DNA of 44,253 nucleotides from the NCBI GenBank assembly GCA_019237415.1, contig JAFAHD010000039.1:1-44253 (forward strand), written 5' to 3'. Shown in pieces: positions 7,764-44,253 of the stretch (positions are counted from its first letter, which is position 1; each line of letters starts with the position of its first letter). Both the position numbers and the translations under genes were made by a program. Below the pieces are notes generated by a model, which made no database searches, was not told the origin of the DNA, and saw only the letters and a list, made by a program, of their open reading frames with translations. The DNA comes from Vulcanimicrobiota bacterium (GTDB lineage Bacteria; Vulcanimicrobiota; Vulcanimicrobiia; Eremiobacterales; Eremiobacteraceae).

Positions 7764-8819
7764 GTGGCCGGCGCGTTACCGCCGACCGCACAAAGCGTCG
7801 AAGCGGGCGAAGCCGCCGCCGCGCAGGCCGCGGCGCGCGCGCGGCGCACCGCAGCGATTCGCGCAGCAGGGCTCATCGCCGGACTCGCGGTGCTGCTCGG
7901 CATTCTCAACGCGCTCACGCACGGCGATTTTCTCGCACCGGGCAACGTCGTCAACGTGCTGCGTCAGATCTCGGTCAACGCGATCCTTGCATCCGGCCAG
8001 ACGTTCGTCATCATCACCGCCGGCATCGACTTGTCGGTGGGATCGCTCATCGCGCTGACCGGCGTGCTGATGGCCGGCGTGCTAGGGGCAGAATCTTCGA
8101 TCGCGCTCGGCGTGATTCTCGCGACGCTCGTCGGCGTGAGCGTCGGCGGTGCAGCCGGTGCGATCAACGGCCTGCCGGTCGTGCGCTTCAACTTGCCGCC
8201 GTTCATCACGACGCTGGCGATGATGCTGATGGCGCGCGGCGCGGCCTTCCTCTACACGGGCGGCAAGCCGATCGAGATCGACAACCCGGCGTTCAATTAC
8301 ATCGGCAGCGGACTCATCGGCGTGGGACATGCGTTCGGCATTCCGGGCGTACCGGTACCGGTCATCATCATGCTGGCGATCGTCGCCGCGGGCCACTTCA
8401 TGCTCACGCGCACGAGGTTCGGACGCTACGTCTATGCGATCGGCGGCAATGAAGAGGCGGCGCGCCTGTCGGGCGTCAACGTGTTCGCCGTCAAGCTGAG
8501 CGTCTACATCATCTCCGGTGCGCTGGCGGGTATCGCGAGCCTGCTGCTCGCAGGCCGCCTCAATTCCGGCATCCCGCAGTCGGGCCAGGGATACGAACTG
8601 CAGTCGATCGCGGCCGTCGTGGTCGGCGGCACGTCGCTGGCGGGCGGACGCGGCTCGCTGGTCGGCACGTTCGTGGGCGCTTTGCTCATCGGCATGCTGT
8701 ATAACTTGATGAACTTGCTGAACGTCCAATCCTATGCGCAGGATGTCGTGCTGGGCGCGGTGATATTAGCTGCGGTGCTGCTCGATGAACTGCGCAGGCG
8801 CTACTTCACGTCAGGATAA
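7764..8819 (+). CDS. sugar ABC transporter permease (RbsC-like)
   Basis: GTG start just after rbsA-like stop; ITAGIDLSVGSLIALTGVLMAGVL and GGTSLAGGRGSLVGTFVGALLIG motifs. Confidence 0.93.
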   Translation: MAGALPPTAQSVEAGEAAAAQAAARARRTAAIRAAGLIAGLAVLLGILNALTHGDFLAPGNVVNVLRQISVNAILASGQTFVIITAGIDLSVGSLIALTGVLMAGVLGAESSIALGVILATLVGVSVGGAAGAINGLPVVRFNLPPFITTLAMMLMARGAAFLYTGGKPIEIDNPAFNYIGSGLIGVGHAFGIPGVPVPVIIMLAIVAAGHFMLTRTRFGRYVYAIGGNEEAARLSGVNVFAVKLSVYIISGALAGIASLLLAGRLNSGIPQSGQGYELQSIAAVVVGGTSLAGGRGSLVGTFVGALLIGMLYNLMNLLNVQSYAQDVVLGAVILAAVLLDELRRRYFTSG

Positions 8820-9165: not shown

Positions 9166-9836
9166 ATCTGCCAGGTCGATGGCGGAAACTCGACGTTGAG
9201 CTGGATATCCGAATAGGTCTCGTGGCGCACCGTCTGGTCGCCTTCGAACTCCGTCACCTCAACCGGCAACCCGTTCGCACCAAGCGTCATCACTTCTTTG
9301 GTGACGCCGTTGTTCTGCGTCGGATCTTCGGCCTCGCCCGTCCACGTCGAGCGGTCGCCCGACACGCTCACCTGCGTGGACTTCCATTTGACGGACTTGA
9401 TGTGCTCGAGCGCTGCGCCGAACGGCGCGTCGGCGATCGTGCGGCCGCGCATCGACGTCGCGATCTTCGCGTGGATGTTGACGTTCAGGTGGATCGGCGA
9501 AAGCCAGCCGCCCTGATGGCCCTGCACGCGGTCGCCGCCTTGCCACACCGCGGCGCTGCCCTTGCCATCGCCGCCGGTGATGTCGAGCCGCGCGCTCGTC
9601 GGTTTCTGAAATTTGATGGCATACACGCGGTCTTGGATCTTGCCGTTCAAAAACTCGCGTGCGGTGATCGTCGCTTGGTAGGACTTGAGCGCATCCCACG
9701 CCGTTTGAAACGCGGCGATCCATTGCTCGGGTGTCGACGGCGCTGACGCCGGAGCGGCCTGAGGCGCTGAGGCGCCGATCCCCGCAGCGCCGAACACCGC
9801 GACCGCGTAGGCCATGGCGATCCGCGTGCTTGTCAT
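9162..9836 (-). CDS. LolA-like / DUF1571-like secreted protein
   Basis: Signal peptide; AFQTAWDALKSYQATITAREFLNGKIQDRVYAIKFQKP resembles LolA-like lipoprotein-carrier fold proteins. Confidence 0.55.
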   Translation of the reverse strand: MTSTRIAMAYAVAVFGAAGIGASAPQAAPASAPSTPEQWIAAFQTAWDALKSYQATITAREFLNGKIQDRVYAIKFQKPTSARLDITGGDGKGSAAVWQGGDRVQGHQGGWLSPIHLNVNIHAKIATSMRGRTIADAPFGAALEHIKSVKWKSTQVSVSGDRSTWTGEAEDPTQNNGVTKEVMTLGANGLPVEVTEFEGDQTVRHETYSDIQLNVEFPPSTWQI

Positions 9837-10453
9837 CGGCTGCCTCCTTTGTCGCCGAGGCCGTCCTTCGGCGAGACGCTGAGCATGCTCTTCGCATCGA
9901 TGCTGGAAACGCCGATGAGCACGTCAGTGGTCGTGTGCGTGGTCACGAACTCGATCGCTTTGGCGAGCGGCGCACCCGCATAACCATGTTCGCGATACGT
10001 GCCCATGACGATGAGGCTTGCGCCCTCTTCCTGTGCCGCCCGGATGACGGCCGTTCCCGTTTGCCGGTCGCGAATCATGCGCGTTTCGATGTCGACGCCG
10101 GCTTTGCGCGCGACCTCCTCCGCGGCGTTGAGCGCGGCGAGCGCGCGGCGTTCGACTTGCGGCAGATCGGCCTCGATCGGCAGCGTGTACGGCACCTCGA
10201 TGACGTAGATCGCGACGACCGTCGCGTGCTCGCGCTTGGCCATGCGGGCGGCAAGCGCCATGAGCACCAGCGAATTGATGTCCGCCGAGAAGACGACAAG
10301 CACCTTGCCGGAGATCTCGCTCGCCTGGCTGGACGCGGTCTGCGCCATGAGCGCGGAGCGCGACAGAGCCGGATGGAGCATCCAGTACAATGTCGAGCCG
10401 ACCGAACCGACGATGACCAACGCGATGCCGATGCCGATCGGATTGGGGATCAC
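9833..10453 (-). CDS. membrane-anchored universal stress protein (UspA family)
   Basis: Start GTG at 10453 overlapping upstream stop (GTGA); N-terminal TM segment then Usp domain with SLIVMGTYREHG. Confidence 0.8.
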   Translation of the reverse strand: MIPNPIGIGIALVIVGSVGSTLYWMLHPALSRSALMAQTASSQASEISGKVLVVFSADINSLVLMALAARMAKREHATVVAIYVIEVPYTLPIEADLPQVERRALAALNAAEEVARKAGVDIETRMIRDRQTGTAVIRAAQEEGASLIVMGTYREHGYAGAPLAKAIEFVTTHTTTDVLIGVSSIDAKSMLSVSPKDGLGDKGGSR

Positions 10454-10665
10454 GAGCGCGCCGGCGGATGTGCGCGCGCGGCGCGCCAGTAGATGATGCC
10501 GCGCCATACCGCGGCAGCTATGAGGATGCAAACCACGCAGTACGCGAGCGCGGTATCGTTCGACGGCGGCGCGATCGAGAGCAGACGGATGAGCGCCGCG
10601 ACGCCCAGCACGGCGATGCCGAACGAGCTGACGACCTTGAACCGCAAGCGGTTTTGGTCGACCAT
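10450..10665 (-). CDS. small two-TM membrane protein
   Basis: MVDQNRLRFKVVSSFGIAVLGVAALIRLL...AYCVVCILIAAAVWRGIIYW. Confidence 0.65.
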   Translation of the reverse strand: MVDQNRLRFKVVSSFGIAVLGVAALIRLLSIAPPSNDTALAYCVVCILIAAAVWRGIIYWRAARAHPPARS

Positions 10666-10669
10666 GATC

Positions 10670-11677
10670 TCACGCCCCGCGTTCGGCGATGAGGCCGATC
10701 GCCTCGCGGTAGGCGCGCTCGGCCGCATCGTCCTCGCCGCCGCGCCCGGCGACGATGCCGCGTTCCATCAGCGCGAGCGCTTCCGCGTATGCGCTTCGCG
10801 AGGGAGCCTGCGCCGGCGGAGCGCTTGCCGGCAGCATCGACGACCATCCGGCGCCCCCGTGCACGCGCGCGGATTCAAATGCAGCCAAGAGCGCGCCGGC
10901 GTCCGTGAAGCGGCGCTGAGGTTCGCTCTCGAGCAGGCGCGCGATGATGCGATCGAGCTCGGCGGGGATCTGCGGGTTGATCAGCCGCGGAGGCCGCGGC
11001 ACCTCGTTCACGTGCGCGATCATCGTCGACACGAGATCTTCAGATGATTCGGCGAACGGCAGCGCGCCCGTCGCGAGTTCGTAGAGCAAGACGCCGACCG
11101 AATACAGATCGCTCGAGCGACCGCCCGTCTTGCCCATGAAGCGTTCGGGGGGCAAGTAGGCCACCGTGCCGACGATCTCGCTGCTCTGCGACATGTTGCC
11201 GACGTCCGACATGCGGCGCGCCAAGCCGAAATCGGTGACTTTGACGACGCCGTCGTCGCTGACGATCACGTTACCGGGTTTGATGTCCCGGTGCACAACG
11301 TCGTGTTCGTGTGCGAACTCCAACGCGCGAACGAGCTGGGCCACGAGGTCCACCGCGTGCGCGATCGTGCACGTCCGGCGATCGATCTCGCGAATGGTCG
11401 CGCCCCGCACGTACTCCATGATGATGTACGAAACCGGCCCTTCGACGCCGACGTCGTACACGGCGACGATGCTTGGATGATTGAGCCGCGCCATCGCTTG
11501 CGCTTCGGCGAGAAAACGCCGATTGACATCGTCCGAGTGCTCGGCGAGGACCTTGATGGCGACGTCGCGCTCCAATCCGTGGTCGTAGCCGCGATAGACC
11601 TCGCCCATGCCGCCCGATCCGATGCGCTCGATGATGCGGTAGCGGTCGGCGAGGACCGTGCCTTCGGCGAGGCTCAT
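10670..11677 (-). CDS. serine/threonine protein kinase (PknB-type), no PASTA domains
   Basis: GSGGMGEVYRGYD, HRDIKPGNVIV, DFGLAR, SDLYSVGVLLYEL motifs. Confidence 0.95.
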   Translation of the reverse strand: MSLAEGTVLADRYRIIERIGSGGMGEVYRGYDHGLERDVAIKVLAEHSDDVNRRFLAEAQAMARLNHPSIVAVYDVGVEGPVSYIIMEYVRGATIREIDRRTCTIAHAVDLVAQLVRALEFAHEHDVVHRDIKPGNVIVSDDGVVKVTDFGLARRMSDVGNMSQSSEIVGTVAYLPPERFMGKTGGRSSDLYSVGVLLYELATGALPFAESSEDLVSTMIAHVNEVPRPPRLINPQIPAELDRIIARLLESEPQRRFTDAGALLAAFESARVHGGAGWSSMLPASAPPAQAPSRSAYAEALALMERGIVAGRGGEDDAAERAYREAIGLIAERGA

Positions 11678-31250: not shown

Positions 31251-31640
31251 GTGGATCTGCCGGCCGGCCTGTTATACACGAAAGAACATGAGTGGGTGAA
31301 GCTCGATGGCACGAGCGCGACCGTCGGCATCACCGACTACGCACAATCATCGCTGGGCGACATCGTCTATGTCGAGATGCCCAAGGCGGGCGCGGTCGTC
31401 GAGCAGTTCAAGCAGATGGGCGTGATCGAGTCGGTCAAAGCCGTCTCGGACATCTTCGCGCCGCTTTCCGGCACGATCGCTGCGGTCAACGCCGACGTCG
31501 AGAACGATCCAGCCAAAGTGAACGGCGATCCGTACGGGACTGGTTGGCTCGTCAAGATCACACTGTCCGACGCGTCGCAGAGCAAGAACCTGCTCGACGC
31601 CGCGGCATACCAAAAGGTCGTCGACGCGGCGGACCACTGA
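31251..31640 (+). CDS. gcvH: glycine cleavage system H protein
   Basis: YTKEHEWVKLDG, GDIVYVEMPKAG, IESVKAVSDIFAP lipoyl site. Confidence 0.97.
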   Translation: MDLPAGLLYTKEHEWVKLDGTSATVGITDYAQSSLGDIVYVEMPKAGAVVEQFKQMGVIESVKAVSDIFAPLSGTIAAVNADVENDPAKVNGDPYGTGWLVKITLSDASQSKNLLDAAAYQKVVDAADH

Positions 31641-31643
31641 CCG

Positions 31644-32993
31644 ATGTACACGCCCCACACTCCGCAGGACATCGCCGCGATGCTCGAGGTCATCGGCGCG
31701 CCGTCGCTCGACGCGCTGAGCGACCCGCCTGCAGGGCTGAAGATCAAAGGCAGGCTCGACGTCGCGCCCGCGTTGCCCGAAGCGGACGCGTACGCGCACA
31801 TCCGCGCGATGGCGGACGAGAACAGCGCGGCGCGCATGACGTCGTTTCTCGGCGCCGGTGCGTACCGCCACTATCAGCCGCCTGCCGTGCCGTACTTCGC
31901 ATTTCGCTCCGAGTTCCTGACCGCGTATACTCCCTATCAAGCTGAAGCGAGCCAAGGCAGCCTTCAGGCCATCTTCGAGTGGCAGACCTACGTCTGTCTG
32001 CTCACCGGCATGGACGTCAGCAATGCGTCGGTGTACGACGGATCGACGGCGCTAGTCGAAGCGGTCATCATGGCGGCGCAGGCGACCGGACGGCGTCGCG
32101 TCGCGATCAGTCGCGGCGTGCATCCGGCGTACCGGCGCGTGCTGGCCACGTACGCGGAGGGCATCGGCGTCGAGATCAGCGAGATTCCGCTCGACGAGGC
32201 CGGCCAGACGAAGATCCCCGCGAGCCTTGATGCCGACATCGCGGCCGCCATCGTGCAAAGCCCCAACTTCTTCGGTGCCATCGACCATGTCGATCAAGCG
32301 GCGTCGGCGGCCCACGCCACAGGCGCGCTCGCCGTGCACGTCAGCGCGGAAGCGCTCTCTCTTGCGGTGCTCAAGTCGCCGCGGGAGTTAGGCGCCGACA
32401 TCGCGGTCGGCGACGCGCAATCATTCGGCTTGCCTGTCGGCTACGGCGGTCCGTATGTCGGCTTCGTCGCGACGACCAAAGAGCACGTGCGCCGTCTGCC
32501 CGGCCGGCTGGTCGGAGAGACGCACGATGTCGACGGCCGCAAGGCGTACGTGCTGACGCTGCAGGGACGCGAGCAGCACATCAGGCGCGAGCTGGCCAGC
32601 TCGAACATCTGCACCAACCAAGCGTTGTGCGCGCTCATCGCGACGATCTATCTTGCGACCGTCGGGCGCAAGGGGCTCGCATCGATCGCCTGTGCCAACA
32701 TGGCCAATGCACGCGCGCTCGCACGCGCCATCGAAGCGGTGCCCGGTTTCGGGTTGGCATACCGCGCGCCGTACTTCAACGAGTTCGTCGTGGGCACGCC
32801 GGTGCCCGCAGCCGAGCTGTGCGCGCAGCTGGAGAAGCGCAGCATCCTTGCGGGCATGCCGCTTTCGCGTTTCTATCCCGAGCTGACCCGCCAATTGCTC
32901 GTCTGTGCGACCGAGCTGACGACGCAGTCACAGATCGACGAGTTCGCACGCGCGCTCGCGCAGGAGGGCACGCATGCCGTCGCTGCTGTTTGA
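31644..32993 (+). CDS. gcvPA: glycine dehydrogenase (decarboxylating) subunit 1
   Basis: YTPYQAEASQGSLQAIFEWQTYVCLLTGMDVSNASVYDG; SFGLPVGYGGPYVGF. Confidence 0.96.
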   Translation: MYTPHTPQDIAAMLEVIGAPSLDALSDPPAGLKIKGRLDVAPALPEADAYAHIRAMADENSAARMTSFLGAGAYRHYQPPAVPYFAFRSEFLTAYTPYQAEASQGSLQAIFEWQTYVCLLTGMDVSNASVYDGSTALVEAVIMAAQATGRRRVAISRGVHPAYRRVLATYAEGIGVEISEIPLDEAGQTKIPASLDADIAAAIVQSPNFFGAIDHVDQAASAAHATGALAVHVSAEALSLAVLKSPRELGADIAVGDAQSFGLPVGYGGPYVGFVATTKEHVRRLPGRLVGETHDVDGRKAYVLTLQGREQHIRRELASSNICTNQALCALIATIYLATVGRKGLASIACANMANARALARAIEAVPGFGLAYRAPYFNEFVVGTPVPAAELCAQLEKRSILAGMPLSRFYPELTRQLLVCATELTTQSQIDEFARALAQEGTHAVAAV

Positions 32994-43221: not shown

Positions 43222-43950
43222 TTACGTATGCGCCGGCGCCGGACTGGCTGGTGCCGGCGTCGTGCCCGGCGCAGTCGCCTTGCCGGTGGGAGTTACGCCC
43301 GCAGGCGTTGACAGTGGGCCGGGCGTCGGCGGACCAGGCACCGTGGGCACCGGAATCGGCTGTCCCTGCGGCGTCGGCGGAGGCGTGAAGCACGGCCCCG
43401 GCTCGACTTGGACGTGGATGTTGTCTTTCAGGTCGTCAGTCGGCGCCGGCGCAGGTGTGGGTGTCGGTTCGCCGATGACGGGCGCGCAGGGCTGCGACGC
43501 GCCATAGACGTGGAGCGTCAGGCCCTTGCTGAGGTTTGCTTTCTCTTGTTTGCCGAAAAACGTCTTCGGGTACTTGTCGCGCAGCTCGAGCAAGTAATAC
43601 GTCGCCTTCTCTTGCCCGTCGTACGTCCAGACTTTGAGATACGCGTTGGTCAACAGATAGAGCGAGCGCGCGAGCTGGGGATCGTTCGGATACTTGCGCT
43701 GCCAGTCCAAGAGCGCATCTTCGGCCCATTGGATCTTCGTGATCACTACTTGGAACGTCGTATGGTCGCCGGCCATGATCGACGCGTCTTTGAGCGAGTT
43801 GTTGATCCCAAGATAGCTGAGCTTCATTCTGCCGAAATACTCGTCGGCAGGCGCCGTGCCGGCGGTTGCAGCACGCGATGGCGCGCTCAATGACCCCGCA
43901 ACCGCGGAAGCCGCGAGAAGCACGAGCACGATTGCGACACGGAACTTCAT
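43222..43950 (-). CDS. secreted helical-repeat protein with proline-rich C-terminus
   Basis: Signal peptide; WQRKYPNDPQLARSLYLLTNAYLKV...YLLELRDKYPKTFFGKQ TPR-like; PTPTPAPAP tail. Confidence 0.65.
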   Translation of the reverse strand: MKFRVAIVLVLLAASAVAGSLSAPSRAATAGTAPADEYFGRMKLSYLGINNSLKDASIMAGDHTTFQVVITKIQWAEDALLDWQRKYPNDPQLARSLYLLTNAYLKVWTYDGQEKATYYLLELRDKYPKTFFGKQEKANLSKGLTLHVYGASQPCAPVIGEPTPTPAPAPTDDLKDNIHVQVEPGPCFTPPPTPQGQPIPVPTVPGPPTPGPLSTPAGVTPTGKATAPGTTPAPASPAPAHT

Positions 43951-43980: not shown

Positions 43981-44074
43981 TGGCGGGAGAAGATAGGAAT
44001 CGAACCTACCGATCCCCTTGCGAAGACCAACTGGTTTTGAAGACCAGCAGGGGCACCAGCCCCATGCTTCTCCC
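43981..44074 (-). tRNA. selC: tRNA-Sec (anticodon UCA), CCA encoded
   Basis: Minus strand GGGAGAAG...CTGGT-CTTCAAA-ACCAG-long variable arm-GTAGG-TTCGATT-CCTAT-CTTCTCCC-G-CCA: 8-bp acceptor + 5-bp T stem, anticodon TCA. Confidence 0.95.
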
Positions 44075-44115
44075 ACGCATGACGAAGGCTTGGTGCAACC
44101 CGCGCTCGGGGACCT

Positions 44116-44134
44116 CCTGCGCGTCGCGCGCAGG
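44116..44134 (-). other. hairpin downstream of partial phosphoesterase gene
   Basis: CCTGCGCG-tcg-CGCGCAGG. Confidence 0.4.
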
Positions 44135-44142
44135 TGTGCGCG

Positions 44143-44253
44143 CTAGCGGCTGAAGATGTCGTTGCCCATAACCGCAAGCCCGGGTGCGCCCGCGTAGCCG
44201 AGATATGGGAGGCCGAAGATCGCTTCGATCGTTCGCAACGTCGAGTAGTGATT
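44143..44253 (-). CDS. phosphoesterase family protein, C-terminal fragment (truncated by window edge)
   Basis: Minus-strand translation NHYSTLRTIEAIFGLPYLGYAGAPGLAVMGNDIFSR*. Confidence 0.6.
   Translation of the reverse strand, partial: NHYSTLRTIEAIFGLPYLGYAGAPGLAVMGNDIFSR

Follow-up and report, generated by a model that had tools for sequence, protein, structure and literature searches.

A selenocysteine tRNA gene at a contig end in a Candidatus Eremiobacterota genome, with selA and selB across contig overlaps

The selC locus

The window, meaning the whole stretch of 44,253 nucleotides that was analysed, is contig 147 of a metagenome-assembled genome (MAG; 1.76 Mb in 150 contigs, 72.4% complete, 0.31% contamination). 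The sole tRNA reported in it by ARAGORN is a tRNA-SeC with anticodon TCA, and the sole RNA family matched in it by Rfam cmscan is RF01852, at 76.0 bits against a gathering threshold of 47 (E = 5.4e-14, full model, positions 1–91). The original prediction of a tRNA-Sec, made from the sequence alone, was therefore borne out by both programs, including the covariance-model test that it had itself named; the minus-strand location is a detail that it had lacked. The structural features that it described can be read directly in the sequence, namely an 8-bp acceptor (GGGAGAAG/CTTCTCCC), the anticodon loop CTTCAAA with its TCA anticodon, and an encoded CCA, and the discriminator base is G. Model score, UCA anticodon, 8-bp acceptor and long variable arm all mark the gene as a tRNA-Sec. 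As for the flanks, the phosphoesterase gene named on one side was confirmed as PF04185, with its stop 68 bp from selC, whereas the supposed secreted TPR-like protein on the other side keeps its signal-peptide-like N-terminus but has no Pfam match (Table 1). This second flank is conserved beside selC in both congeners.

Table 1. Features at the selC end of the window
Feature	Position	Strand	Basis
242-aa protein, signal-peptide-like N-terminus, downstream of selC	43222..43950	minus	no Pfam/NCBIfam match
selC, tRNA-Sec(UCA), encoded CCA	43981..44074	minus	ARAGORN + RF01852 (match 43985-44074)
Exact overlap with end of contig G000:C8 (5700-5846; SelB C-terminus contig)	44107..44253		BLASTN, exact overlap
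Phosphoesterase (PF04185), C-terminal end; complete on C8 4629-5810	44143..44253	minus	contig overlap + Pfam

Across 101 genomes, this MAG included, RF01852 scores fall into two sets, at or above 63.5 bits and at or below 50.7 bits, with a gap between them. The second-best match in this MAG scores 46.1 bits, and the lower-scoring matches checked in relatives are tRNA-Ser or tRNA-Leu. All eight acceptor pairs are kept in 25 CCA-encoding loci, the window selC among them, with two-sided base changes at pairs 6, 7 and 8, and the TCA anticodon is present in each of the 30 loci read.

selA, selB and the contig end

Both SelA and SelB are encoded in this MAG. Contig C25 carries SelA (TIGR00474, 523 bits against a cut-off of 268) and the N-terminal part of SelB (TIGR00475, 278 bits against 242), and the C-terminal SelB match lies on C8. 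The reverse complement of C25 shares an exact 147-bp overlap with C8, which in turn shares one with the reverse complement of the window (BLASTN, 100% over 147 bp). Joined across C25 and C8, SelB is 632 aa long, as is its orthologue in the congener G002, which matches SelB-wing_3. That both overlaps have one and the same length suggests a k-mer overlap left by the assembler, and k147 appears in the contig name of a congener MAG. The joined order is a gyrA-like gene, a trxA-like gene, selA, selB, several genes including two MsrA (PF01625), the phosphoesterase and selC, where the gyrA and trxA names were taken from reading translations. selA and selB lie upstream of selC on the same strand, and 5070 bp separate the selB stop from selC.

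Its overlap with C8, the contig of the SelB C-terminus, shows that the window breaks off shortly before selAB is reached. The claim that selC sits away from any selA or selB was thus not upheld: the apparent absence of selenocysteine (Sec) machinery, and with it the isolation of selC, is a contig-end artefact, and the locus offers a clear example of partners that seem to be missing owing to where a contig stops.

The association of selAB with selC is kept in two genomes of the same genus, at distances of ~3.5 and ~10 kb. One contig of G002 (C66) is matched in the same order by C25, C8 and the window end, with the end of selB at L062:5198 and selC at 8735; in G001, selC is found at C29:4488 and SelB at C29:14687-16531. 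The genes between selAB and selC, identified by translation reading and partial Pfam scans, are the phosphoesterase, MsrA twice and a glutathione-transferase-like gene, together with a 1601-aa gene in G001. SelA from this MAG has its nearest named relative in Candidatus Eremiobacterota CP_BE_RX_3 (75% identity) and shares 64% identity with its counterpart in another Eremiobacterota MAG, and the host was assigned to the phylum Ca. Eremiobacterota because of these relatives.

A formate dehydrogenase gene with an in-frame UGA

A family search reading through stops returned a molybdopterin oxidoreductase match on contig C14 of this MAG with one in-frame TGA. The codon lies at 783-785, in the motif CGGLGIISIENQARI-U-HSSTVPGLGTSFGRGGATTF (in context, ENQARIUHSSTVPGLGTSFGRGG), and aligns with the active-site Sec of formate dehydrogenases (FDHs) of known structure. 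The predicted protein aligns over approximately its full length to Sec-containing FDH alpha subunits (9qm0, E = 4.6e-243; Escherichia coli 1kqf, E = 5.8e-227), scores 1054.6 bits against a cut-off of 814.2 with TIGR01553 (formate dehydrogenase-N alpha), and also matches NCBIfam NF041513.

A hairpin of 7 bp with the loop GGUCU lies 11 nt 3' of the UGA. Across the class, 28 distinct sequences of two FDH types keep its register, with loops of GGUCU or AGUUU. Standard pairs fill 195 of the 196 pair cells in these sequences, four of the seven pairs vary on both sides, and GC, CG and TA interchange at the same positions; because the protein is likewise conserved across the hairpin, the covariation lends support but does not amount to a clean test on its own. 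Register, loop G and UGA taken together, the hairpin is best read as a putative bacterial SECIS element. A selenoprotein gene with an in-frame UGA and a downstream SECIS candidate is thus present, as was to be sought according to the original prediction, and the organism very probably recodes UGA as selenocysteine. The accompanying warning about mis-called ORFs also holds: with UGA decoded as Sec, standard gene calls would split the FDH alpha gene here, and peroxiredoxin and SelD genes in relatives.

FDHs with a UGA are of two types in this class (L073 and L088 vs L084): one is short and FdhA-like (NRTUHAPSV), and the other is long and FdnG-like, with two motif variants, UHGPTVVSL and UHSSTVPGL.

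Within the window itself UGA is an ordinary stop. Many of its genes end in TGA, and none of four candidate UGA readthroughs has a domain that spans the stop. From their domain content, gcvH and gcvPA (31251-32993) are two genes with a normal stop between them; the kinase-to-Usp candidate (9836-11677) and the other two are each best read as a normal stop followed by a separate gene or by no domain. gcvH and gcvPA share a frame and are set apart by one TGA and one codon, an arrangement that a naive UGA-readthrough screen would flag.

Selenocysteine pathway and wider selenoproteome

The window tRNA is real, an ordinary component of bacterial Sec decoding, and we put the probability that it is the selC of a standard pathway of this kind in a Ca. 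Eremiobacterota MAG at about 96%. Genes, UGA position and hairpin are given by sequence, and the pathway steps follow from the families concerned. The tRNA-Sec would be charged with serine, which SelA would convert to selenocysteine with selenophosphate from SelD; SelB would then deliver the tRNA to UGA codons followed by a SECIS hairpin on the 3' side. The target here would be the FdnG-type FDH alpha subunit, with its in-frame UGA at the Sec position that ligates Mo/W, and Sec insertion is predicted at that codon.

SelD gave no match in this 72.4%-complete MAG, so that of the three proteins for which a genome search had been proposed, SelA and SelB were recovered and SelD was not. Among 30 relatives, 29 have a SelD match that exceeds the cut-off, the two congeners being among them, and its absence here is most simply put down to incompleteness of the MAG. 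The SelD active-site residue is U (TGA) in many relatives, the UGA form occurring in most family members, and C in both congeners (L016:1501-2427; G001 in L060), a case of Sec/Cys exchange within the family.

The missing SelD, together with a single selenoprotein gene in the MAG, is what could be said for selC being a relic, or a stray gene acquired horizontally, in a host that no longer decodes Sec. This is very improbable, as intact SelA and SelB are encoded close by, the FDH gene has both a UGA and a covarying SECIS candidate, synteny is kept in two congeners, and the tRNA differs from those of the congeners at only 2–3 of 94 positions, with its stems kept. Still less credence can be given to a mis-called tRNA with a long variable arm (Ser or Leu) or a general UGA suppressor: some RF01852 matches in the clade, at 39–47 bits, are indeed Ser and Leu tRNAs, but a score of 76 bits, the 8-bp acceptor, the UCA anticodon and the linked selAB all speak against such an error, and the TGA-terminated window genes and the four readthrough candidates above argue against suppression. 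Equally slight is the chance that C25, C8 and C14 are binned contamination. The genome is a fragmented MAG, but the contamination estimate is low, exact overlaps join C25 and C8 to the window, both contigs are collinear with congeners over kilobases, and from its UGA onward C14 matches G002 at each of the first 36 nt. An integrative element using selC as its attachment site, an idea raised by the variable spacing between selAB and selC among the three congeners, was dropped without being refuted, the genes in between having been read by translation and by partial Pfam scans.

With a standard Sec pathway as the preferred reading, the result amounts to a settlement, at the level of sequence, that an uncultivated lineage decodes UGA as selenocysteine, and it points to a selenium-dependent enzyme of formate oxidation in a phylum known almost solely from MAGs.

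In this MAG, the FDH gene is the only selenoprotein gene found among the FDH, SelD, peroxiredoxin, CMD and DsbA families; none of its nine AhpC-TSA matches, nor its one DsbA match, contains an internal stop. In relatives, genes for AhpC-TSA peroxiredoxins (TxxU) and CMD-family proteins (CxxU) occur with an internal TGA as the catalytic codon. Several Eremiobacterota peroxiredoxin subfamilies (L171-L186) have the TGA at the peroxidatic position, and in some genomes (L172, L175, L177) a TlpA-like gene with Cys only comes after a UGA-containing peroxiredoxin-like gene. Among the matches listed in the SelD, FDH, peroxiredoxin and CMD searches, internal stops are TGA only, never TAA or TAG. Counting these four families only, there are at least four selenoprotein genes in each congener and at least six in G006 and in G015, where six or more is the mark of a selenoprotein-rich organism (PMC5029168). 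No joint treatment of Eremiobacterota and selenocysteine was found in the open-access literature, most subscription papers falling outside that scope, and within the literature searched the selenoproteome of the phylum looks undescribed. It is somewhat more probable than otherwise that Ca. Eremiobacterota is a largely undescribed Sec-using phylum with some selenoprotein-rich members, whose UGA-containing genes include SelD, CMD-family genes, both types of FDH and a number of peroxiredoxin subfamilies.

It was also noted that whole-genome searches of G016 and G024 recovered SelB and FDH genes with an in-frame UGA and no tRNA-Sec above 47 bits (further loci, L103 and L092). In G016 (C43; L207) the contig breaks off within a block found close to selC in G021, and the lack of the tRNA is likely a gap; in G024 (C59; L208) the neighbouring block is present without the tRNA.

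Compared with E. coli selC and bacterial RF01852 members, the window selC shares the 8-bp acceptor, 5-bp T stem, long D stem, long variable arm, UCA anticodon, discriminator G and encoded CCA; it differs from E. coli selC in sequence and in its host, with no other notable difference. As with other bacterial SelA (TIGR00474) and SelB (TIGR00475) proteins, both exceed curated cut-offs and their genes are adjacent on one strand, whereas selC lies 5 kb downstream of selB and does not directly adjoin it, and gyrA-like and trxA-like genes precede selA in this MAG. The TxxU Sec-peroxiredoxins and CxxU CMD/AhpD-like selenoproteins listed in a 2026 review that does not mention Eremiobacterota (PMC13188914) have the same motifs as proteins in relatives of this genome. 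The C14 FDH shares with E. coli FdnG (1kqf), 9qm0 and the 6sdv FDH near full-length similarity, the UGA/Sec position and a downstream SECIS, but differs from them in its motif variant, U-HSSTVPGLGTSFGRGGATTF.
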